Source: Steroidobacteraceae bacterium (GTDB taxonomy: Bacteria; Pseudomonadota; Gammaproteobacteria; Steroidobacterales; Steroidobacteraceae). From it: 64,000 nt of DNA. The position numbers and the translations under genes are program-made. The notes below the pieces were generated by a model. The model saw nothing but the letters and a program-made list of their open reading frames with translations. It ran no database searches and had not been told where the DNA came from. This document shows positions 5,778 through 34,555 of the stretch, in pieces; positions within the stretch are counted from its first letter, which is position 1, and each line of letters starts with the position of its first letter. The stretch is taken from assembly GCA_025458905.1 (NCBI GenBank), contig JALORN010000003.1, forward strand, positions 1-64,000. The letters are read 5' to 3'.

Positions 5778-6551
5778 CTATTCCTCGCGCACCGCGAGAC
5801 CGGCTTTGAAGCGGCGCTTCAGCCACATCACGCCGAGGATGTCGACGATGCCGACCCACAGGCGATCGAGCATCCCGTACTTCGACACGCCGCGCTCGCG
5901 CGGCCGGTGGTTGACCGGGACCGACACCACCCGTGCACCGGCGCGCTGGAACAGCGCCGGCAGGAAGCGGTGCATGTGATCGAAGCGCGGCAGGTCGAGG
6001 AAGGTGTCGCGATGCATCAGCTTGATGCCGCAGCCGGTGTCGGGCGTGCCGTCGCCGAGCAGGGCCGAGCGCACGCCGTTGGCGACCCGCGACTGCAGGC
6101 GCCGCAGCCAGGTGTCGCGGCGACGGCCCACGCGGTTGCCCATCACCAGTCGTGCGTCGCCGCGCGCCGCGACCAGGGCGGGGATGTCCGCCGGGTCGTT
6201 CTGCCCGTCGCCGTCGAGCGTGGCGATCCACTCGGCGCGCGCCTCCCGGACCCCGGTGCAGACGGCCGCGCTCTGGCCGTTGCGGAAGGAATGGCGCAGC
6301 AGGCGAACCTGGGGGATGCCACCGTCGCGCACCGCGCGCACCACGTCTGCGGTGCCGTCGGTGCTGCCATCGTCGACGAACAGTATCTCGAAGTCGCGAC
6401 CGGCCAGCGCGCCCGCCACCTCGGCCGCCAGCGGCGCGACGTTCTCGGCCTCGTTGCAGACCGGGATCACCACGGAGATCTCCGGCCGGTGCATGCGGTC
6501 GGTGTCGGAGGGCGTGTCGCTCGGGCCGCCGTCCGGGCCGGTGTCGGTCAT
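5778..6551 (-). CDS. GT2 family glycosyltransferase (DPM1/ArnC-like)
   Basis: This is a GT-A fold glycosyltransferase that would build a polyprenyl-phosphate sugar on the cytoplasmic side of the membrane. The 257-residue protein has the SVVIPVCNEAENV nucleotide-binding start (26-38), VDDGSTDGT (59-67), the DGDGQNDP metal-binding segment (113-120), GCGIKLM (173-179) and the HRPRERGVSKYG loop typical of DPM1-like enzymes (215-226). It lacks the C-terminal transmembrane pair found in ArnC/GtrB, as in soluble DPM1-type enzymes. The start at 6551 has a weak ribosome-binding site; ATG 6494 is an alternative. With the LABN and ArnT-like genes downstream it forms a three-gene set for transferring a lipid-linked sugar to an envelope acceptor. 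Confidence 0.85.
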   Translation of the reverse strand: MTDTGPDGGPSDTPSDTDRMHRPEISVVIPVCNEAENVAPLAAEVAGALAGRDFEILFVDDGSTDGTADVVRAVRDGGIPQVRLLRHSFRNGQSAAVCTGVREARAEWIATLDGDGQNDPADIPALVAARGDARLVMGNRVGRRRDTWLRRLQSRVANGVRSALLGDGTPDTGCGIKLMHRDTFLDLPRFDHMHRFLPALFQRAGARVVSVPVNHRPRERGVSKYGMLDRLWVGIVDILGVMWLKRRFKAGLAVREE

Positions 6552-25245: not shown

Positions 25246-26423
25246 CAGGCGCGAGGCTTCGGCTGTCGCGTCCGCGCCGGGGCGGGCGCCCTGGCCCTGC
25301 CGTCGCGCTCAGCCGCGCGTCGACGGGCCGGCCGGGCCGCACCCGCCTCGCCGCCGGCGGCCTCGCCCTCGGCCGGGAGGTCGCCGCCAGCCTCCGCCTC
25401 GCGGCGCCGGGCGGCCTCGGCCTCGAGGAAGCGCATCACTTCTTCCGCGAGCTCCCGCGTACCGATGCCGGTGGCACCGGAGATCAGGAACCAGGGCCCC
25501 TTGTGGCGCAGCCGGCGCACCATCGCCTTGGCGGCCGCCTCGGCCTCCTCGTCGGGCAGCAAGTCGCGCTTGTTGATCACCAGCCAGCGCGGCTTGCCGA
25601 GCAGGTCGTCGCTGAACTTGCCGAGTTCGGCGACGATCGCGCGCACGTCGCGCACCGGATCGGCATCCTCGTCGGGCGGCGCGATGTCGACGAGGTGCAG
25701 CAGCACGCGGGTGCGCTGCAGGTGGCGCAGGAAGCGGTGCCCCAGGCCGGCGCCCTCGGCCGCGCCCTCGATCAGCCCCGGGATGTCCGCCATCACGAAG
25801 CTGCGATGCTCGCCGCAATAGACCACGCCGAGGTTCGGGTGCAGCGTCGTGAACGGATAGTCGGCGACCTTCGGCCGCGCCGACGAGACCGCGCGGATCA
25901 GCGTGGACTTGCCGGCGTTGGGCAGGCCCAGCAGGCCCACGTCCGCGATCACCTTCAGCTCCAGCTCGAGCAGCCGCTTCTCGCCCGGAAGCCCGGTACC
26001 GAACTGGCGCGGCGCACGGTTGGTGCTCGACTTGAAGCGCGCGTTGCCCCACCCGCCCTTCCCGCCCTGGGCGACCTGCAGCACCTGGCCCTCGCGCGCC
26101 AGGTCGCCCAGCTGCTCGCCGGTCTCGGCGTCGCGCACGACCGTGCCGACGGGCACGGCCACGTACAGGTCGTCGCCGCCACGGCCGGTGCAGTCGTTGC
26201 CACTGCCGCCCTCGCCGGATTTCGCCTTGTAGTTGCGCTCGACCCGGAAGTCCGCGAGCGTGTTGATGCCCTCTGCGGCGCGCAGGAACACGCTGCCGCC
26301 ATGGCCACCGTCGCCGCCGTCGGGCCCGCCGAAGGGCACGAACTTCTCGCGGCGGAAGCTGACGCAGCCGCGCCCGCCGTTGCCGGCCTGGACCCTGACG
26401 CGTGCCTCGTCGACGAACTTCAT
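25245..26423 (-). CDS. obgE: Obg-family GTPase
   Basis: An essential ribosome-associated GTPase acting in 50S maturation and stress response. The 392-residue protein starts with the glycine-rich Obg domain ([23 protein letters not shown]). The G domain follows, with G1 GLPNAGKST (about 165), G3 DIPGLIEGA (about 213) and G4 NKRDLL (about 288). A long Arg/Pro/Ala-rich C-terminal tail of about 60 residues follows. The start at 26423 is the MKFVDEA common to all ObgE; an upstream ATG/GTG frame only adds non-family residues. It lies in the classic order rplU-rpmA-obgE, but a terminator separates rpmA and obgE. Confidence 0.96.
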
Positions 26424-26481
26424 GCTTGCGACCCCGGTTCGCGGATCATCCCGACACGGCCCCGTCGCCCGGCGGCCTCCC

Positions 26482-26510
26482 AAACGAAAACCCCGGCGCG
26501 AGGCCGGGGT
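26482..26510 (-). terminator. Terminator between rpmA and obgE
   Basis: On the minus strand the stem ACCCCGGC / GCCGGGGT with a 5-nt loop is followed by TTTCGTTTG. It would end most rplU-rpmA transcripts, with read-through or a separate promoter supplying obgE. Confidence 0.8.
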
Positions 26511-26535
26511 CTCGAGGCGAACGCCGCGGCGACGC

Positions 26536-26793
26536 TCAGTCCGCGACGACGTTGACGAACGTCTTCTGGTCGGCGCCCTTGCGCTGGAACTGCACCTTGC
26601 CGTCGCTGAGCGCGAACAGCGTGTGGTCCGTGCCGATGCCGACGTTGACGCCCGGGCGGTACTGCGTGCCGCGCTGGCGGATGATGATGTTGCCCGCGAC
26701 GACCTGTTCGCCGCCGAACGCCTTCACGCCGAGACGCTTGCTGTGGGACTCGCGGCCGTTCTTGGTGCTGCCGCCTGCCTTCTTGTGTGCCAT
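26536..26793 (-). CDS. rpmA: 50S ribosomal protein L27
   Basis: An 85-residue L27, the ribosomal protein whose N-terminus reaches the peptidyl-transferase centre. The sequence begins [16 protein letters not shown] and contains the diagnostic LGVKxFGG-type block, [10 protein letters not shown] and [15 protein letters not shown]. It is 45 nt downstream of rplU and clearly in the same operon. No leader cleavage motif of the Firmicutes type is present, as expected. Confidence 0.98.
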
Positions 26794-26838
26794 GAGGGTG
26801 TGCTCCGGATAGGGTGCCGAGGACGCGGGGACGGGCGA

Positions 26839-27153
26839 TCAGCCCGCGCTGATGCCCGTGACCTTCACCTCGGTGAACTTCTGACGGTGGTTCTTCATCC
26901 GCAGGTAGTGCTTGCGGCGGCGGAACTTCACCACGCTGACCTTGTCGCCCTGGCCGTGCTTCTCGACCGTGGCGCGCACGGAGGCACCGCCCACCAGCGG
27001 CGCACCGACCTTGACGGACTCGCCGGAGCCGACCAGCAGCACCTGGTCGAACGTGACCTCCGCACCCGGCTCGGCCGCGAGCTTCTCGATCCGCAGGACG
27101 CTGCCCTGCTCGACCCGATACTGTTTGCCGCCCGTGGCGATGACCGCGTACAT
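26839..27153 (-). CDS. rplU: 50S ribosomal protein L21
   Basis: A 104-residue L21 that binds 23S rRNA. It starts [14 protein letters not shown], contains [11 protein letters not shown] and ends with the hallmark [25 protein letters not shown] 27153 follows GGAGCG at good spacing. It is the first gene of rplU-rpmA, with a well-formed promoter at 27182-27210. Confidence 0.98.
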
Positions 27154-27181
27154 GCTGCGCTCCAATGCGAAAAGGCCGCGC

Positions 27182-27210
27182 ATTCTACGGCTTGACCCGG
27201 CCCCGGTCAA
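27182..27210 (-). promoter_or_regulatory. Sigma70 promoter of rplU-rpmA
   Basis: On the minus strand, TTGACC (27205-27210) and TAGAAT (27182-27187) are separated by 17 nt. The expected leader is about 22 nt. Confidence 0.8.
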
Positions 27211-27409
27211 ACGTTGATTCGCTTTTCTTTCAACGACTTGCGCCGCCGGCAATGGCGGGGCCCCCGGAGGGTCCGCACGGGAGCCGCGGCCGGGTCCGGG
27301 GCATGTCCGGTAGCGCCGGCCGGGCGTCGGGCACGCACCGACGCGTCGCCCGGCCGGGGCGCGCACCGGCATTCTCCCGGCCGCCGCGCTCCGCTAGGAT
27401 GCGCGCGGC

Positions 27410-28381
27410 ATGACACTCAACGAGATCAAGGACCTGGTGCGCCCGGACCTCGGTGCCGTCGACGCGGTGATCCGCGTCCGGCTCAAGAGCGCGGTGGGCC
27501 TGGTCGACCAGGTCGCCGAACACATCGTCGCGGGCGGCGGCAAGCGCCTGCGGCCACTGATCGTGCTGCTCGCGGCGCGCGCCTGTGGCTACGGCGGCAG
27601 CAGCCACATCGACGCCGCTGCCTTCATCGAGTTCATCCACACCGCCACGCTGTTGCACGACGACGTCGTGGACGGCTCCTCGCGCCGCCGTGGCCGGCTC
27701 ACCGCCAACGCGATCTACGGCAACCAGGCGAGCGTGCTGGTCGGGGACTTCGTCTACTCGCGCGCCTTCCAGATGATGGCCGCGATCGGCTCGCAGCGTG
27801 TGATGGAGATCATGTCCGAGGCGACCAACGTGATCGCCGAGGGCGAAGTCCTGCAGCTGATGAACGCCAACGACCCGGAGACCACGCAGCAGCGCTACCT
27901 CGAGGTCATCTACCGCAAGACGGCCAAGCTGTTCGAGTCGGGTTCCGAAGTGGCCGCGGTGCTCGCCGGGGCGAGCCCCAGCCTGCAGCGCGCGCTCGCG
28001 ACCTACGGCAAGCACCTCGGCACCGCCTACCAGCTGATCGACGACGTGCTCGACTATCGCTCCGACCCGCAGGAGCGCGGCAAGAACCTTGGCGACGACC
28101 TCGCCGAGGGCAAGCCGACCCTGCCGCTGATCCAGGCGCTGCGCCAGAGCGACGACGCCGCCGCGCGCGAGCGCATCCGGCGCGCCATCGAGCAGGGCGG
28201 GCTGGAAGAGATGGACTCCATCCTCGCCACAATTGAATCGACTGGTGCCCTTGAGTACACTCGCCGGCTCGCTCAGGACGAGGCGGATCAGGCTCTGACG
28301 GCGCTGCACGCGCTGCCCGAGTCCCCGTACAAGAAAGGCCTCGCCGCGCTCGCACGGTTCACCGTCGAACGCACCTCCTGA
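27410..28381 (+). CDS. ispB: Octaprenyl/polyprenyl diphosphate synthase
   Basis: A trans-prenyltransferase that makes the isoprenoid side chain of ubiquinone. The 323-residue product has the GGGKRLRP motif (about 43-50), the first aspartate-rich motif LLHDDVVD (about 81-88), GDFVYSRAF, and the second aspartate-rich motif LIDDVLDY. It ends PYKKGLAALARFTVERTS. A TAGGAT -10-like element at 27395 sits only 10 nt before the ATG, so the mRNA may be leaderless. It is divergent from rplU. Its last third contains a good promoter for the tRNA-Pro downstream. Confidence 0.95.
   Translation: MTLNEIKDLVRPDLGAVDAVIRVRLKSAVGLVDQVAEHIVAGGGKRLRPLIVLLAARACGYGGSSHIDAAAFIEFIHTATLLHDDVVDGSSRRRGRLTANAIYGNQASVLVGDFVYSRAFQMMAAIGSQRVMEIMSEATNVIAEGEVLQLMNANDPETTQQRYLEVIYRKTAKLFESGSEVAAVLAGASPSLQRALATYGKHLGTAYQLIDDVLDYRSDPQERGKNLGDDLAEGKPTLPLIQALRQSDDAAARERIRRAIEQGGLEEMDSILATIESTGALEYTRRLAQDEADQALTALHALPESPYKKGLAALARFTVERTS
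28233..28261 (+). promoter_or_regulatory. Promoter inside ispB for tRNA-Pro
   Basis: TTGAAT (28233-28238) and TACACT (28256-28261), 17 nt apart, lie within the ispB coding sequence. Codons here (ATT, GAA, ACT, GGT, CTT) are unusually AT-rich compared with the rest of the gene. The tRNA starts about 120 nt downstream. Confidence 0.55.
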
Positions 28382-28389
28382 GACCGCTT

Positions 28390-28466
28390 CGGGGTGTAGC
28401 TCAGCCTGGTAGAGCACTACGTTCGGGACGTAGGAGTCGGAGGTTCAAATCCTCTCACCCCGACCA
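28390..28466 (+). tRNA. tRNA-Pro (anticodon CGG)
   Basis: A 77-nt cloverleaf with encoded CCA. The acceptor CGGGGTG pairs with CACCCCG, the D arm is AGCTCAGCCTGGTAGAGC, and the anticodon stem CTACG/CGTAG encloses TTCGGGA, giving anticodon CGG, which reads CCG. It lies 8 nt after ispB. Its 3' end is the left junction of a small island. Confidence 0.97.
28448..28465 (+). repeat. attL-like copy of the tRNA-Pro 3' end
   Basis: AAT-C-CTCTCACCCCGACC, inside the tRNA. The same 18 nt with one change recur at 31158-31175. The shared core is 14 nt (28452-28465). Confidence 0.65.
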
Positions 28467-28568
28467 ACTATTTCAGGAACTTGCGCAGCTTTTTGAGCAC
28501 TGAGAAAGCCGGCGCGTAGCGGATTAACTCCAAGGTAACTCCGCTCGATCGGCGCGCTGAGGACCCGC

Positions 28569-29401
28569 ATGGCCACCGAGTCCGCTGAACCTAAAGCGTC
28601 GAAACCGGGCAACCCTGCCTCGCGCGTCTATGCCGTGTTGCTCGCAGCCGAGCAGCACTCGCCCTACCCGATGTTTCCTCGCTAGAAGGGTGGGCATTCG
28701 TCGCCGGAGCGCAGAATGCCCTTGCGCAGCCGTGGTAGCGCGAGGAGTTGGTCACGTCATTCCTCGGCGACCTTCGCGGACAGATCGCCCTCGTCGAGCG
28801 GCAATGCTCCCTCGACGTCCGCATACCCGACATGCGAAGCGCGGTTGACCAGGCACGCACGCTGACCTCGCCGTTGAACCTCGGGGTTCTGTGGAGATCG
28901 CTCAAAGGCAATTACCTGCGCCCCCAGGACCTCACGCACTGGCAATGGGCTGGCGCGATGGTGGCGCCAGAGCAGGCGCCGCTTGAGCAGGCGGACCTCG
29001 ACGATCTGGTACGCGCGATCGATGAGCTTGAGGCAGCGGCGAACTCCCCTGGCGTACCGCTTGAACTGCAGGCCTTCTTCCTGCGCAACGCTCTCGAGCT
29101 GCGGCCGGCGGTATCGCGTTACCGCGTTCTCGGAGCTCGCGCGCTCGCAGATGAAATCGATCGGTGGCTGGGCGAAATATCGAGGCACGGGGCGAGGCTC
29201 GCAACCGCCGCGGAGCGCGCACCCGAGGCCTCGCAGACGGTAGTCGAAAAGGCGCAGGCGGCGTTCGACAAGTTCGCCAGCGTCTGCGGTAAGGCCGAGG
29301 ACATCTACAAGTGGGGCGAGCGCGCCTATCTCTTCGTACTCACGCACGATGCGAAGATCGCTCCGCTCATGAAGATGATCGGGCAGCTCACCGGCGGCTA
29401 G
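28569..29401 (+). pseudogene. Decayed gene in the island (frameshift and stop near the 5' end)
   Basis: A protein-like frame starts at ATG 28569 and runs to a TAG at 28683. Just before, another frame continues with GWAFVAGAQNALAQPW, is interrupted by a TAG at 28736, and then runs REELVTSFLGDLRGQ to a stop at 29401. The three pieces read as one ancestral protein of about 275 residues broken by one frameshift and one nonsense codon. The last piece can still be translated from a TTG at 28748 (217 residues, AGGAG-like GAGGAG just before). It is helical and charged, ends MKMIGQLTGG and matches no family I recognise. If the first piece is not truly coding, the 3' ORF alone would be the gene. Confidence 0.55.
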
Positions 29402-29406
29402 GTGAG

Positions 29407-29802
29407 CTAGCCGGGTGCCTGAGCTGCCGCAGCGTCATAAATGCACGTACCGAACTCGATCACGTACTCCCGCACATGCGGCGAGCTCCACGGATCCAGG
29501 TGCTGAAAATCCAACTCCAACGGGATCAGCGCTTCGAGCTCCGACTTCCATGCATGAGAAACGTCCGACCAGTGCCATTCGCCCGGGCCCATGGGCCGCA
29601 TTCCGCAGTCCATCCGCTGCGGAGGATCGCGAAACGGTTCCGTGAAGAGGACGGCGACGTCCAAGTCGCTATCCAGGCGACTCGTGCCTTTCGCTCTGCT
29701 TCCGAACAGGTACACCCGGAGAACGTCCGGCTTCGCACGGGCCCAAGCAGCGATCACTCTGGCAGCTTCATCGGCTTCCAAGTAGTACCCTCTAGGCCGC
29801 AA
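29407..29802 (-). CDS. MNT-type nucleotidyltransferase
   Basis: A 131-residue minimal nucleotidyltransferase of the DNA polymerase beta superfamily. The hallmark GS-x10-DxD motif reads GSRAKGTSRLDSDLDVAV, and the fold ends with the ALIPLELDFQHL strand. Such proteins are often antitoxins that AMPylate a HEPN toxin, or are parts of antibiotic-resistance families. No HEPN gene with an RxxxxH motif lies beside it, so a complete pair cannot be claimed. The start at TTG 29802 is a guess; the frame is open further upstream without ATG. It runs convergently to the decayed gene, 5 nt away. Confidence 0.72.
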   Translation of the reverse strand: MRPRGYYLEADEAARVIAAWARAKPDVLRVYLFGSRAKGTSRLDSDLDVAVLFTEPFRDPPQRMDCGMRPMGPGEWHWSDVSHAWKSELEALIPLELDFQHLDPWSSPHVREYVIEFGTCIYDAAAAQAPG

Positions 29803-29849
29803 CGACGGCGGCCGGCCTATTGCAGCTGGAAAGCTGGCGCCGGTGAAGG

Positions 29850-30050
29850 TCAGGAATTCTTTCCCTGCGCTAAAGCCGCGGCGAGCGCATCGGCCAAGGA
29901 CGCCTCGTTTTCGAGCGCCTCCGGAAGACCGCTCAAGGGATCGCTGACCGCCGTGCTCAACAGTTCCGCCACAGCCATGTCAGCGTTGCAAGCCTGCTCC
30001 TGCAGAGCCAACGTGCAGACCCACAGCGAACGCATTTCCTTGTCGAGCAC
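29850..30050 (-). CDS. Tiny acidic ORF upstream of the nucleotidyltransferase, unknown
   Basis: A 66-residue helical, acidic product starting at GTG 30050 and ending LAQGKNS. It has the same direction as the nucleotidyltransferase, 47 nt before it, so they may be co-transcribed. It contains a hydrophobic patch and alanine-rich ends but lacks the RxxxxH signature of HEPN toxins. It may be a partner, a fragment or a chance ORF. No family is recognised. Confidence 0.4.
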   Translation of the reverse strand: MLDKEMRSLWVCTLALQEQACNADMAVAELLSTAVSDPLSGLPEALENEASLADALAAALAQGKNS

Positions 30051-30180
30051 CTCAATTCCGGTTTGCCGTCAGGCGACTTCCCGCGAGCGCGACAATCGCA
30101 TCGATCTTCTGGTTGCGGGAGGAGTCCACACATGACGCTAGGCGGGCACGATGCCGAATCCGGACGAGGGCGGCACCTAC

Positions 30181-30717
30181 CTAACAGTCCTCCTCTTGCC
30201 CCAGGGTCTCCAAGAGCGCTACTTCTAGCCCGGCGGTGCTAAGGTCGTTAAACACCTTTAGCTGCTGCTCGGAAGACACTCCAGAACATACGCCGCGAAC
30301 AACGGCAATCTTCTTGCCGCGAATAAGATCGGGACGGTCCCGGAGATAAGGCACCACATCCTTGCATACCATTCGATCTAGCCCGACTTCGCAGAGTCCC
30401 GCTCGAGCGAGCAAATGCACATCCACTCTCTTGTCGCTCGTGGGGTACTGCCACCCTGTCGGTCCTTGCAAACCGTGGAGTCTTTCGAATAGCAGTACAG
30501 GCATGAGCAACAGAAGCGAGAAAACCCAGAACGACCAAGGCGCCGAGCGCCGTGCTGACACCCAGAACGCTGGGGCCGTGAAGAGCACACCCGCTACCAC
30601 GGTCAATGAAGTCGGCGCGCGGACCACGAAGGTCAGTAGGCAAAAGAGCGGTACTCCGCAAAGGGCGGGCCAGTACCTCTCAATCGCGACGTTGAATGGG
30701 ACTCGCTCCTGACGCAT
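30181..30717 (-). CDS. Small membrane protein of unknown function in the island
   Basis: A 178-residue product starting at ATG 30717. The N-terminal half has three to four hydrophobic helices (LCGVPLFCLLTFVV, SLTVVAGVLFTAPAFWV, FWVFSLLLLMPVLLF). The C-terminal half is soluble, with several cysteines (GLCEVG, MVCKDV, GVCSGV) and a final EEDC. The codon use and GC content differ from the flanking chromosome. No family is recognised. Its place in the remnant suggests cargo rather than a core function. Confidence 0.6.
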   Translation of the reverse strand: MRQERVPFNVAIERYWPALCGVPLFCLLTFVVRAPTSLTVVAGVLFTAPAFWVSARRSAPWSFWVFSLLLLMPVLLFERLHGLQGPTGWQYPTSDKRVDVHLLARAGLCEVGLDRMVCKDVVPYLRDRPDLIRGKKIAVVRGVCSGVSSEQQLKVFNDLSTAGLEVALLETLGQEEDC

Positions 30718-31157
30718 CTACAACCCTAGCGCCAAACGCTGAGGTCAACGGCCGGCTGCCGTCGCCTCGGTTTGCACTTTATCCCACCCGGTCCGTTGCC
30801 CGACTCTGGGCGACGTGCCGTGACCATGCTCGGGCCCGTTGTCCAAGGGTCACGTCGAAAAGTTTCCACTCGCTAAGGCAACCCACGCGGTCCAGTCCAT
30901 TGATCGAATGTGCCTCGGTACATCGTCTCTGGCATCGGCGGGTAGGGATGTACCCCGCTTGGCGCCAATGCAGGCAAGACTTGCGGAGACGCACCAAAAT
31001 CCTATTGCCTCGTCCTCAGATCGCGTGTCGCGCCCTGCGTTGCTGAAGATCCAACGGGTGATGCCCGAAGGCCTAGGTTGACACAGTTTAGTCGAAACTA
31101 TTTGTCTCTAGATCATAGGCTTGCACGTGTTTTCATAGGCCTTGGCGCAGTAGTCTG
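30718..31157. other. Non-coding part of the island, no gene seen
   Basis: About 440 nt of lower-GC sequence between the membrane protein and the right repeat. Short open frames exist on both strands but none has protein-like composition or a start with a ribosome-binding site. It may hold remains of lost genes. Confidence 0.55.
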
Positions 31158-31175
31158 AATTCTCTCACCCCGACC
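31158..31175 (+). repeat. attR-like copy of the tRNA-Pro 3' end
   Basis: AAT-T-CTCTCACCCCGACC repeats the tRNA-Pro end (28448-28465) with one mismatch. No tRNA body precedes it, so it is not a second tRNA. It marks the right edge of the low-GC segment. Confidence 0.65.
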
Positions 31176-31234
31176 TTACCGGCGATCTAGGGTGCCCTTG
31201 GGGGACCATGGCCGCGGGATCGGGTGGTTCGCGT

Positions 31235-32107
31235 TTATGGCACCGCGCTCGATCCGCGCCTCGATCGCGACCTCCCGCCCCGCCCTGCAGCGCGGCGGCT
31301 CGCCACTACGCCGTCTCCGACGATCCGGGTTTCGAACCCGGCCCGTTCCAGTCGCGTCGCGACCTCGCGCGGCACGTCGCGTCCGCTGGTCAGGCGATTG
31401 GGGGTGCCCGTGTAATGGAACAGGCGGCCCCTGGGCCCCAGCAGCCGCGCGAACGCGTCGTAGACGCGCTGTGAATAGAGCTCGCCCGCGATGCCGAAGC
31501 GCGGCGGGTCGTGCAGGATCGCCTCGTAGCCCGCATCCGGCAGGTCGGCCAGCCGCGCCGTCACATCCGCCTCCTCGAGGCGCAGCCTGGCGCCGTCTGC
31601 GGCAGGCGACCAGGGGTTGAGCGTGCGCAGCCAGAGGACGGCCGGGCTCTTCTCGAACGAGTGCACGGAGGCGGCGCCGGCCTCGAGACAGGCGGCCGCG
31701 AAGTAGCCGAGGCCGCCGCAGGTGTCGAGCACCCGGCCACCGCGCGGCACGACCAGCGCGACCTTGCGTCTGGCGTCCTCCCACGGGGAGACCTGCGCGG
31801 TCGGCAGCATCTTGATGCCGTCGATCTCGAAGGTCGGCGGACCCCAGTCGGTCGGGACCAGCTTGACCAGCGCCCCGTCATACCGCGCCACGGGCTCGAA
31901 GGCCGAGCCCGTGAAGCGATAGACGGTGCGCTCGCGGCAGGGATCGATCCATTCGAAACGTCGACCGGCGAGGCACCAGCCGGCCGCGTCGACCTCGACA
32001 CGCGCCTGCGTGCGGCCGAGATCGAGCGAGCACATCACCTCGCGCTCGCCCGCCGCGGCGGCGGCGCGCAGGCGGGCCTGCAGGGCGGCGGTCAGGAGCG
32101 GCAGCAT
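31235..32107 (-). CDS. Class I SAM-dependent methyltransferase (COG2521-like)
   Basis: A 290-residue putative methyltransferase of the type often annotated as a predicted archaeal methyltransferase (COG2521). The Rossmann motifs are visible: motif I VLDTCGGLGYFAAACLEAGA, motif II SFEKSPAVLWL and the catalytic-like HDPPRFG, followed by FHYTGTPNRLTSG. Residues before motif I carry the conserved IDGIKMLPT and SPWEDARRKV blocks. The target is unknown; DPPR resembles motifs in RNA base methyltransferases. It ends with an Arg/Ser-rich tail just outside the island, and the ATG at 32107 faces the divergent SnoaL-like gene. Confidence 0.75.
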   Translation of the reverse strand: MLPLLTAALQARLRAAAAAGEREVMCSLDLGRTQARVEVDAAGWCLAGRRFEWIDPCRERTVYRFTGSAFEPVARYDGALVKLVPTDWGPPTFEIDGIKMLPTAQVSPWEDARRKVALVVPRGGRVLDTCGGLGYFAAACLEAGAASVHSFEKSPAVLWLRTLNPWSPAADGARLRLEEADVTARLADLPDAGYEAILHDPPRFGIAGELYSQRVYDAFARLLGPRGRLFHYTGTPNRLTSGRDVPREVATRLERAGFETRIVGDGVVASRRAAGRGGRSRSRRGSSAVP

Positions 32108-32235
32108 CGACGACTTGTGCCACAGCCACGCACCGGCCGTCCATCCGCCGCCGATCGCGCGAACCCCGGGCTAGAATCGGCCGCGCCGGCGCCGTCTCGC
32201 TGCGACGTGCCCGACATCCCAGCAGGAGGCTCCAG

Positions 32236-32817
32236 ATGCGTCTTCCGATGCCCGCGCTCGCCGCGTCCCTCGTCGCCCTCGCCACCCTCCCGGCCGCCAC
32301 GCCGGCGGCCGCCGCGGACGGCGCCGCGCCCGGCAAGCCGGTGATCGCCTGCGAGGGCAACGAGAAGAACCTGCAGACCTACCTGCAGATCCACAAGGTG
32401 CTCTTCATGGAGCGCGACGCGTCGCGCGTCGGCGAGTTCTATGCCCCGGAGGTCATCTCGCACAACCTCGACAGTGGTGGCGGCGGCGCGCGCAAGGTCA
32501 AGAACTCGGACATGGCGAAGATGTGGGCCGCCTCGAAGAAGTACAACCCGGACCGCGTTCTCGCCGACGACCTCATCATCTGCCAGGGCCCCTACGTGGT
32601 GGTGCGCACCACGTTGATCAACAGTGACACGACGGGCTACGAGGGCAACGCACCGACCGGCAAGTCCTACTCGATCAGCGCCACCGACATCTATCGCTTC
32701 CAGGACGGCAAGGTCGTCGAGCGCTGGGGCAATGCCGACCTCGTCAGCATGTACAAGCAGCTCGGCTACACGCTGACGCCGCCGGAGTCGGCGCGCCGCA
32801 AGAGCGCGGCGAACTGA
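32236..32817 (+). CDS. Secreted SnoaL-like / NTF2-like protein
   Basis: A 193-residue exported protein with a strong signal peptide (ALAASLVALATLPAATPAAAAD). The mature part matches SnoaL-like polyketide-cyclase/NTF2 folds: YLQIHKVLFMERDASRVGEFYAPEVISHN and DIYRFQDGKVVERWGNAD. GGAGG lies 8 nt before the ATG, and a TAGAAT -10-like element is at 32172-32177. Such proteins are usually ligand binding or small-substrate isomerases; the location here is the periplasm. No operon partner is visible. Confidence 0.72.
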   Translation: MRLPMPALAASLVALATLPAATPAAAADGAAPGKPVIACEGNEKNLQTYLQIHKVLFMERDASRVGEFYAPEVISHNLDSGGGGARKVKNSDMAKMWAASKKYNPDRVLADDLIICQGPYVVVRTTLINSDTTGYEGNAPTGKSYSISATDIYRFQDGKVVERWGNADLVSMYKQLGYTLTPPESARRKSAAN

Positions 32818-33055
32818 GCGGCTCGCCGCGTCGCGGGCCTGCACCGGATCGTGGCCCCCGGGCGCCCGGCGGCCACCCCGGTGCGCAACCGACGGGCGAC
32901 AGGACACGACCGCCCTGCGACGCGGATCACGTCCGGCCGACCTCCCGCATGCGGTGACCGTGGCAACTGTGCGGTCGCGCAGCACCCCATCTGCTCGACG
33001 GGCATAACCTGCCGCTCGGGCGGACCGGGCTGTGCCCGGCACGAGGATCGCGACG

Positions 33056-34555
33056 GTGAATTCGGCGGCATGGTTGCCCATCGGGGCAGATGAACTGCGG
33101 GTCGGGCACTACGTGCGGATCGGCGACCGCTGGTTCGAGCATCCGTTCCTCAAGAGCACGTTCATGATCTCGAGCGCCGAGGAGATCGCCGCGATCCGCG
33201 CGGCGGGCCTCGCGCAGGTGTTCTTCGACCCCGGCCGCTCGAACGTCGCTCCGCCCTCGATCCCGGTGCTGCAACCGGCCGTGTTGCCGGAACCCCCCGT
33301 ACTCCAGCCTGCCGGACGGCCGGCGCCGGAACCTGCAGCCACTACCTCCGCCTCCGCGCCCGAACCTGCCCCGGAGCCCGCTCCCGGTCCCGCTCCCGCG
33401 CCCGAACCCGCGCCTGCGCTCGAGCCCGCTACCGCCCTCCCGCCCGCCCCGCCCCCGGCTCCTGCACCGGCCCCGGCGCGCGCCGTCGCGACGCGGGTGC
33501 CTCCGGGGCCGACGCCGCTGGCCTGGCACGCACCCGTGGACCTTGGGGCGCTGCGTGCCAACCTCGCGCAGTCGCGTGAGGACTATCGGGCGGCCGTCGA
33601 CGGCGCGGCACGCGCCCTCGCGATGCTCGATGCCGGCGACGCCCTCGGCCAGGAGGCGACGCTCGGCGCCGTGCGCCAGGTGCTCGCGCTCGCGGCAGGC
33701 CGGGAGCGCCCCCTGACGCTCGCCCCGGTCGCGGCCCCTGTGGGCACGCAACGTCGCCAGGCCTTCCTGTCCATGGATGCGGCCGCACTGGCCGCTGCGG
33801 TCGGCCGGCGGCTGCGCCTCGACGCGGCCGACCTGCAGGCCCTGACCACGGCCGCGATGGTGCATGCAGTCGGGCTAGCCAGGCTGCCCCCGCGACTGCG
33901 CGACGAATCGCGCGTGCAGGGCCGTGACGAGCTGGCCGAGTTCCGGCAGTACCCGCGACTCGGCGCGACGCTGCTGCGCGAGTACGTCGGTTTCGCGCCG
34001 GAAGTGATCCGCATCGTCGAGCAGCATCGCGAGCGGCTCGACGGCAGCGGCTTCCCCTCGGGGGCGCGCGGCGACCGCATCCACCCCCTGGCGCCGGTGG
34101 TCGGGGCGATCCGCGAGTTCCAGGTGCTGGCCTGCCGCGACGGGCCGCCGATGCCCGCCGCGGCGCTCGCCCAGCTGTACCTGAAGCTGCGCGGCGCGTA
34201 TGGCGCGGCCATCGTCGAGCACGTGATCGCCGCCCTGACGGTATACCCACCGGGAGCCTTCGTTGCGCTGTCGGACGGCCGGATCGCACGCGTGGCGCGC
34301 GTCAGCGACCGCGCGCGGCTCGCGCCCCTGGTGTGGCTGTACGACGCAGCGACACCCCCGAACCAGGCACAGCTCGTCGACCTGTCGGAGCCGGGTGGCG
34401 CGAGCATCGAGCGGGTGCTCGATCCCCGTACCCTCCCCGAGGAGGTCCGAGGCCGCCTCGGCGGCGACTGGGCAGGCCTCACCTTCCCGGCACCCGTCGC
34501 TCCGCCGATGGGCGCGCGCCCGCCCGCGCTGCGGGTCGCCGGCGATGCGCGCTGA
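33056..34555 (+). CDS. Degenerate HD-GYP-like protein with DUF3391 N-terminus
   Basis: A roughly 499-residue protein. The N-terminus (ELRVGHYVRIGDRWFEHPFLKSTF) is the DUF3391-type domain seen before HD-GYP phosphodiesterases. A 90-residue linker made almost only of Pro, Ala and Glu follows. The C-terminal half aligns to HD-GYP but has lost key residues: the HD pair reads HAVGL, the HHERLDGSGYP motif reads QHRERLDGSGFPSG, and the GYP stretch is changed. The metal site is therefore probably incomplete, suggesting a c-di-GMP or protein-binding role rather than hydrolysis. GTG 33056 has GAGGA 8 nt upstream; an earlier GTG at 33032 is possible. Confidence 0.75.
   Translation: MNSAAWLPIGADELRVGHYVRIGDRWFEHPFLKSTFMISSAEEIAAIRAAGLAQVFFDPGRSNVAPPSIPVLQPAVLPEPPVLQPAGRPAPEPAATTSASAPEPAPEPAPGPAPAPEPAPALEPATALPPAPPPAPAPAPARAVATRVPPGPTPLAWHAPVDLGALRANLAQSREDYRAAVDGAARALAMLDAGDALGQEATLGAVRQVLALAAGRERPLTLAPVAAPVGTQRRQAFLSMDAAALAAAVGRRLRLDAADLQALTTAAMVHAVGLARLPPRLRDESRVQGRDELAEFRQYPRLGATLLREYVGFAPEVIRIVEQHRERLDGSGFPSGARGDRIHPLAPVVGAIREFQVLACRDGPPMPAAALAQLYLKLRGAYGAAIVEHVIAALTVYPPGAFVALSDGRIARVARVSDRARLAPLVWLYDAATPPNQAQLVDLSEPGGASIERVLDPRTLPEEVRGRLGGDWAGLTFPAPVAPPMGARPPALRVAGDAR

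Follow-up and report, generated by a model that had tools for sequence, protein, structure and literature searches.

In this study, we revisited a 2.7-kb stretch of DNA that lies directly behind a tRNA-Pro(CGG) gene in a window of 64 kb (the window being the whole stretch of DNA that was analysed). The features found at this locus are collected in the table below. On the left, the intact tRNA gene, the putative integration target, is preceded by a polyprenyl diphosphate synthase gene, which we take to be ispB; the count of close matches to this gene includes the window's own genome, and the remaining six genomes hold distant matches at the level of paralogues only. On the right, beyond a second copy of the tRNA tail, lies a class I methyltransferase-like gene, for which homologues at E values of 2.5e-95 or lower were found in 7 of 59 other relatives and whose final 10–20 codons fall outside the matches to these homologues. 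An Rfam search over positions 28300–31300 returned nothing besides the tRNA.

Features at the tRNA-Pro(CGG) locus, with their positions in the window
Feature	Position	Strand	Basis
ispB-like polyprenyl diphosphate synthase gene, conserved left flank of the tRNA	27410..28381	+	E<1e-80 in 54/60 genomes
tRNA-Pro(CGG), intact, putative integration target	28390..28466	+	ARAGORN; Rfam RF00005, 65.2 bits
Proximal repeat copy, attL-like, part of the tRNA	28448..28465	+	direct-repeat search
ORF1, probable remains of one gene (as listed 28748-29401, 217 aa)	28569..29401	+	homologue comparison
MNT-type nucleotidyltransferase, MntA-like, 131 aa	29407..29802	-	PF18765 4.7e-12, PF01909 5.4e-8, above cut-off
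Small ORF, 66 aa, without family	29850..30050	-	family searches
ORF, 178 aa, without family	30181..30717	-	family searches
No convincing gene, segment preceding the distal copy	30718..31157		one weak 80-aa ORF kept; no Rfam match
Distal tRNA-Pro tail copy, attR-like, 17/18 nt	31158..31175	+	core-match and repeat searches
Class I methyltransferase-like gene, right flank	31235..32107	-	homologues; weak Pfam Methyltransf_23, below cut-off

A previous sequence-only reading of this DNA had claimed that an 18-nt copy of the tRNA end, with one mismatch and a 14-nt exact core, recurs 2.7 kb away, and this is borne out by our analysis. The two copies form a direct repeat with a spacing of 2710 bp, the repeat unit consists of the final 18 nt of the tRNA preceding its terminal A, and no tRNA surrounds the distal copy. 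Such a repeat is far beyond chance. When the 14-nt core was searched with up to one mismatch in the 64-kb window, the two repeat copies were the only matches, with 0.04 matches expected and two reached in 0 of 100 shuffles, and the sense 18-mer was found at up to one mismatch in 0 of 400 Markov-simulated 5-kb sequences. As controls, no further copy of the tRNA-Thr tail was found in the window at up to three mismatches, and the tRNA-Ile tail has one further copy, which carries three mismatches and lies on the tRNA's own strand 27 kb away.

The lower GC content claimed for the DNA between the two copies was confirmed, with 61.4% at positions 28466–31158 compared with 69.7% on the left (26000–28466) and 73.0% on the right (31176–34000). 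A fit of two change points on a 5-bp grid placed the changes at 28205 and 31190. The right change is located 15 bp past the distal copy; the left one is located 260 bp upstream of the tRNA end, within ispB, and therefore the right edge alone coincides with the repeat. The GC profile, together with the presence of homologues of the methyltransferase-like gene in the 7 relatives mentioned above, is also in agreement with the proposal that core sequence resumes after the distal copy.

A codon-position filter kept five ORFs in the stretch, four of which are gene-like. The nucleotidyltransferase scored 45.7 bits against the NCBIfam model MntA_antitoxin, which is under the cut-off of 60 bits, and no HEPN partner was recognised among the other island ORFs that were scanned; an assignment as type VII toxin–antitoxin system MntA/HepT is therefore not supported. 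Weak partial matches to the nucleotidyltransferase were present in 7 of 149 other family genomes. The 178-aa ORF likely encodes a protein with a membrane N-terminus, as judged from its translation. No integrase, phage or transfer genes were recognised among the island ORFs scanned, the single PHROG match at E<1e-3 was to a nucleotidyltransferase family, and plasmid searches with ORF1 and the 178-aa ORF gave no match.

ORF1 has no Pfam or PADLOC match, and its NCBIfam and PHROG matches are weak (E 0.011 and 0.045). Homologues of this gene were found in none of the 97 other relatives, so that the segment is not one shared by all relatives, which would have been expected had it been old core sequence. 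One homologue (E 2.9e-4) was found in a class sample with 368 other genomes, and with this homologue as the query one match was obtained among 216 other family genomes. The two homologues are 252 and 277 aa in length, and in comparison ORF1 starts approximately 50–60 residues late. The search with the class-sample homologue matches the window at 28673–29188, a region with one in-frame TAG inside. A piece further upstream, which lies in a different frame, is similar to the beginning of the homologue in genome G126, with a score of 46 that was reached in 0 of 1000 shuffles. For the more distant homologue in G527, 180 of 1000 shuffles reached the score of this upstream piece, and the middle piece is weak, with 22 of 500 and 77 of 500 shuffles reaching its scores. 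These findings suggest that a frame change together with an in-frame TAG has most likely disrupted the 5' part of ORF1, which would mean, as far as ORF1 is concerned, that the cargo is decaying. No tRNA-Pro is present in the 16 kb around the G126 homologue. The fold predicted for ORF1 by single-sequence AlphaFold2 had a mean pLDDT of 52 and was unusable.

The same locus was then compared between relatives. Of 30 ispB loci that were fetched, the window's own among them, 25 contain tRNA-Pro(CGG), and the sequence following this tRNA varies from relative to relative. The methyltransferase-like gene follows the tRNA in none of the relatives' fetched downstream stretches; in genome G035 it is located on the same contig as ispB and tRNA-Pro at a distance of approximately 130 kb, and in other genomes on a different contig. 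A close ispB match was not found in genome G025. Genome G017, which is among the best ispB matches of the genus, carries other genes and no tail copy in the 9.3 kb after the tRNA, and therefore does not provide a direct empty site. A comparison of this junction in related strains had been proposed as a check of the sequence-only reading, and in the fetched stretches no direct empty site was found.

The same architecture is nevertheless found at tRNA-Pro in relatives. In the same-genus genome G007, a 1041-bp cassette has the tRNA 3' half as a perfect copy on either side, and of its two genes one is of the Gp49 type (PF05973) and the other is presumably an antitoxin-like ORF. Further examples are present in G192, G102, G071, G065, G035 and others. 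An exact tail copy lies 33 kb away in G020, a genome that is 99% complete and has only two Phage_integrase hits, and in G004 and G009 a second tail copy is present on another contig. The tail itself, with the tRNA included, is matched in 127 of 150 family genomes, and a second copy with no more than two mismatches is present in 4 of 14 sampled genus genomes. Among the 32 loci that were fetched before the copies were known, some of them short, two have a downstream copy and 30 have none in the stretch; in a set of 69 tRNA-Pro(CGG) loci that is enriched for copies and in which each locus has 2.5 kb or more downstream, a sense copy is present in 10 loci and an antisense copy in 0. The window's distal copy has the core alone in common with the family array sites described below. 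It lacks the 45-nt tRNA half that is seen in the same-genus genomes G007, G020 and G004 as well as the ~40-nt motif upstream of the tail that forms part of the ~60-nt distal-site motif of the arrays, and with the distal-site profile of the family arrays nhmmer returned 9.4 bits and an E value of 0.67.

Based on the repeat, the right GC edge, the sporadic genes and the recurrence of this architecture at tRNA-Pro in relatives, an insertion without an integrase at the 3' end of the tRNA is well supported. Of the minimal integrative element or satellite that had been suggested from the sequence, the insertion is thus the part that holds; a phage satellite is not supported, as integrase, phage-hijacking and capsid-related genes were not recognised among the island ORFs scanned and the sole PHROG match at E<1e-3 is a nucleotidyltransferase family. 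Going one step further, we propose that the stretch is probably a relic, left by a small cassette of the CIME type (an att-flanked cargo without an integrase of its own) that had integrated site-specifically. According to this proposal, a tyrosine recombinase would have inserted a circular molecule, which carried the acceptor-stem end of tRNA-Pro, into the tRNA gene of the chromosome. This would have restored the tRNA and left a tail copy at the far end, where the repeat and the right GC edge are seen, and the integrase may have been supplied in trans or may have been lost since. The original cargo would have consisted of an accessory gene, the nucleotidyltransferase and two ORFs without a family, and would now be decaying. 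The shortness of the distal copy, the position of the left GC edge off the tRNA end, the lack of an empty site, the low identity of the genome's Phage_integrase hits to the integrases at tRNA-Pro (in an incomplete assembly) and the 30 of the first 32 relatives' loci without a copy speak against the relic, which we still regard as the likely origin of the stretch.

CIMEs are introduced as cis-mobilizable elements in the IME literature, where tandem accretion is described as well (PMC5704250, in the excerpt considered here). In line with this description, no integration or transfer genes were recognised in the window stretch, att-like copies are located at both ends, and relatives show tandem rows at one tRNA. 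In contrast to the elements described there, the window stretch is very small and only putatively mobilizable, and integrase searches of its contig and of the window brought up no ICE or IME beside it.

A somewhat unlikely alternative, which overlaps with the relic proposal, is that a phage or integrative element of much larger size shrank by internal deletion to the present stretch, whose small size would then be secondary. Intervals counted between neighbouring sites on one fetched stretch bear on this idea. We obtained 28 such intervals, a count that includes neither the window itself nor the long spans of G020 and G129 and from which two tandem intervals of 134 bp in G152 had been dropped. 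Of the 28, 23 are 783–2885 bp and one is 4200 bp in size. The remaining four, of 10.9–13.1 kb (L186, L187, L188 and L194), are in favour of a larger element, as are the integrase fragments that persist beside some sites (L109 and L110). However, small size is common at tRNA-Pro, as seen in the 23 of 28 intervals, and the window stretch yielded no recognisable trace of a phage, of conjugation or of an integrase. With stricter boundaries, that is after dropping the two inner L181 boundaries, which match the motif only in part and lack the tail core, 21 of 26 intervals are 2.9 kb or smaller. Using an integrase profile that was purpose-built from few integrases and may miss others, we detected one integrase ORF (L181) and one fragment (L109) within the intervals; a flag at L110 was rejected as an overlap artefact caused by an open frame running past the site. 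The tandem 134-bp repeats of G152 follow tRNA-Pro(TGG) and were set aside.

By itself the island in the window is an ordinary one, and it led to a family-wide hotspot at one tRNA, where very small cassettes without an integrase, some with toxin–antitoxin genes, accumulate and recur between genera. A Pfam search with ten cassette proteins assigned one each to PIN, Phd/YefM, Gp49 and radical SAM, three to AbiEii and two to AAA_14/DUF4143, with one protein remaining without a family; some cassettes thus carry toxin–antitoxin genes or an AAA/DUF4143 ATPase. From reading the translations, we presume that some cassette ORFs encode Fic, DUF72, SIMPL, GST, YidB and HTH-type antitoxin proteins. An AbiE cassette matches between G156 and G071, which belong to different genera, at 89% over 1629 bp (cassette DNA alone compared), and between G071 and G198 at 95% over 1146 bp. 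A DUF4143 ATPase cassette matches at 88% over 1652 bp between G197 and G063, again genomes of different genera with the cassette DNA alone compared. The G063 cassette begins right at the tRNA, and the G197 cassette at a detached half-tRNA copy; in the two genomes alike, the similar sequence sets in within the tRNA half. The far site of the G063 cassette is unrecognisable, and ispB is absent from the fetched pieces of G197 and G071.

An alignment of 17 distal sites revealed, to a varying degree, a motif of approximately 40 nt upstream of the tail copy, and with a profile built from these sites another five sites of full length were detected, of which four are in G156 and one is in G198. The additional G156 sites scored 41–43 bits, with one of 20 bits, and array sites as a whole, 17 of which had built the profile, scored 35–67 bits, with one of 20 bits. 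When the half-tRNA copy is counted, the G156 contig has seven sites in a row. In a scan of genome contigs with the array pattern, which is not that of the window's tail, 10 stretches were found, nine of them in five Proteobacteria/Gammaproteobacteria MAGs and one in a Christensenellaceae MAG. The tRNA-Pro half had 0 matches in viral contigs with a pattern that represents the tail common in other genera rather than the window's.

Tyrosine-integrase ORFs are located directly at tRNA-Pro in G026, where the open frame enters the tRNA, and in G136. Others adjoin distal copies, namely in G198 and in G060, where the fetched stretch ends within the ORF; a truncated one is present in G197. The integrases of G026, G136 and G198 have no mutual BLASTP match at E<=1e-5. 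Six Phage_integrase hits were obtained in the window's own genome (G000), an assembly that is 86% complete. NCBIfam identified one as XerC, one as XerD and two as integron integrases, both of the latter on contigs other than the island's, and the remaining two hits are near tRNA-Met and tRNA-Glu. None of the six is more than 35% identical to the integrases found at tRNA-Pro. No Phage_integrase hit is present on the island's own contig, and none was found when the window was scanned with the purpose-built profile. The search for an integrase of matching specificity elsewhere, which had been proposed along with the sequence-only reading, therefore did not yield one close to the tRNA-Pro integrases in this 86%-complete genome.

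For the family as a whole, we advance with considerable doubt the idea of a cassette system anchored on tRNA-Pro(CGG), in which integrases acting in trans would add small cassettes serially and of which the window would hold a lone decayed cassette. In such a speculative system, the cargo would often be a toxin–antitoxin pair or an ATPase, the 60-nt ends would share only the tRNA acceptor-stem end, and the arrays would grow downstream of the tRNA in an integron-like manner, with the tRNA in the role of attI. Integron gene cassettes are small, include toxin–antitoxin genes and are arranged in rows with a recurrent end site, attC, which is marked by the boxes GTTRRRY and RYYYAAC. The family cassettes are alike in outline, being small, arranged in rows, provided with recurrent ends and in part with toxin–antitoxin genes; however their sites are tRNA tails and not attC, as paired attC-type boxes on one strand were found in 0 of the 17 family sites, a set to which the window's distal copy does not belong. 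With this result and with the integron integrases located on other contigs, an integron cassette is not supported as far as the family sites are concerned. If it is true that integrases acting in trans move the cassettes, tRNA genes would be platforms on which arrays are built in the manner of integrons, and the recurrent ends offer a concrete substrate for testing integrases of the same family. None of the literature titles searched concerned tRNA-anchored arrays of such small cassettes.

A further step would be to regard the window's island itself as a living cassette of such a trans-acting system, still mobile and subject to tRNA-Pro integrases that insert, excise and shuffle cassettes lacking an integrase. 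The arrays in relatives, in which small cassettes follow one another and ~60-nt distal sites recur, with as many as seven sites on one contig, would be consistent with this, as would the cassette that adjoins the tRNA in one genus and a detached copy in a second one, and the 99%-complete genome G020 with its distant tail copies and two Phage_integrase hits. For the window we consider it improbable, as its main cargo gene is most likely broken and its distal site is without the array motif. Finally, it is very improbable that the repeat is a coincidence next to an unrelated low-GC insertion: only 14 nt are exact and the left GC edge is 260 bp off, but the chance estimates, the location of the distal copy at the right GC edge and the recurrence of this arrangement in relatives all argue against it.

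Returning to the relic proposal and to the hotspot in relatives, two known groups of islands are of particular interest. As described in the excerpt considered, the ssrA islands of Dehalococcoides are arranged in tandem downstream of one RNA gene with a 20-bp repeat of its 3' end that is immediately preceded by a conserved motif of 15 bp, and 15 of 31 lack an integration module; they use a serine recombinase and a tmRNA target, and the vcrABC islands are approximately 12 kb in size (PMC3146451). The tandem position after one RNA gene, the 3'-end repeat, the upstream motif and the frequent lack of an integration module are shared with the arrays described here. In contrast to what that excerpt reports, the integrases here are tyrosine integrases, the target is tRNA-Pro, the intervals are mostly 0.8–3 kb, and the window copy is without the upstream motif. 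The tRNA-SSR islands of Burkholderia have 3'-end tRNA repeats of 14–56 bp, and one of them is located at tRNA-Pro with two repeats of 49 and 23 bp (PMC2612704, in the part considered). They resemble the present islands in these repeats and in the one island at tRNA-Pro, but their inserts are large and, according to the same part of the source, more than 80% have a transposase gene (PMC2612704).

In 8 of 86 tRNA-Pro loci, the assembly ends within 150 bp of the tRNA, and these breaks may reflect variation between strains.

An identical sequence of about 35 nt lies upstream of the detached copy of the tRNA-Pro 3' half in two species of the window's own genus (genomes G020 and G004; loci L185 and L189), so the two loci seem to have the right end of one element in common. 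Within the portions of these two loci that were retrieved, no tyrosine integrase was detected. At locus L110 of the related genome G197 (G197:C4), a tyrosine-integrase reading frame is apparently truncated right where the half-tRNA copy begins, and a longer relative (76% identity over 155 aa) adjoins a distal copy at L178 (G198:C107).

The tRNA-Pro tail also recurs in series. In the related genome G156, a row of seven tRNA-Pro-tail sites spaced 1.0-1.9 kb apart (L109; C39:44000-59800), separated by AbiE-type genes and others, resembles an integron in its layout. The window's genome, G000, encodes two different integron integrases (419.8 and 397.2 bits against a cut-off of 265), which share 49% identity over 316 aa.

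Positions of the integron integrase loci in the window's genome (G000)
Locus	Contig	Positions	Profile
L003	C1	116478-117074	TIGR02249
L004	C104	1698-2285	TIGR02249

Tandem repeats are found at L115 (G152:C26; oriented positions 1016, 1149 and 1283), where two 134-bp units follow tRNA-Pro(TGG) inside a GC-rich repeat, each terminating with the tRNA tail. Outside the family Steroidobacteraceae, one match to the array-site pattern, which follows the family's cassette arrays rather than the window's tail, lies at 6120-6160 in a Christensenellaceae MAG (L173; MSGV01000023.1) and scores 21.4 bits against the site profile.

Contig ends at tRNA-Pro would be expected if strains within a sample differed in the sequence after the tRNA; at eight loci (L092, L094, L127, L129, L134, L137, L161 and L192) the contig stops 0-142 bp past the tRNA-Pro 3' end.
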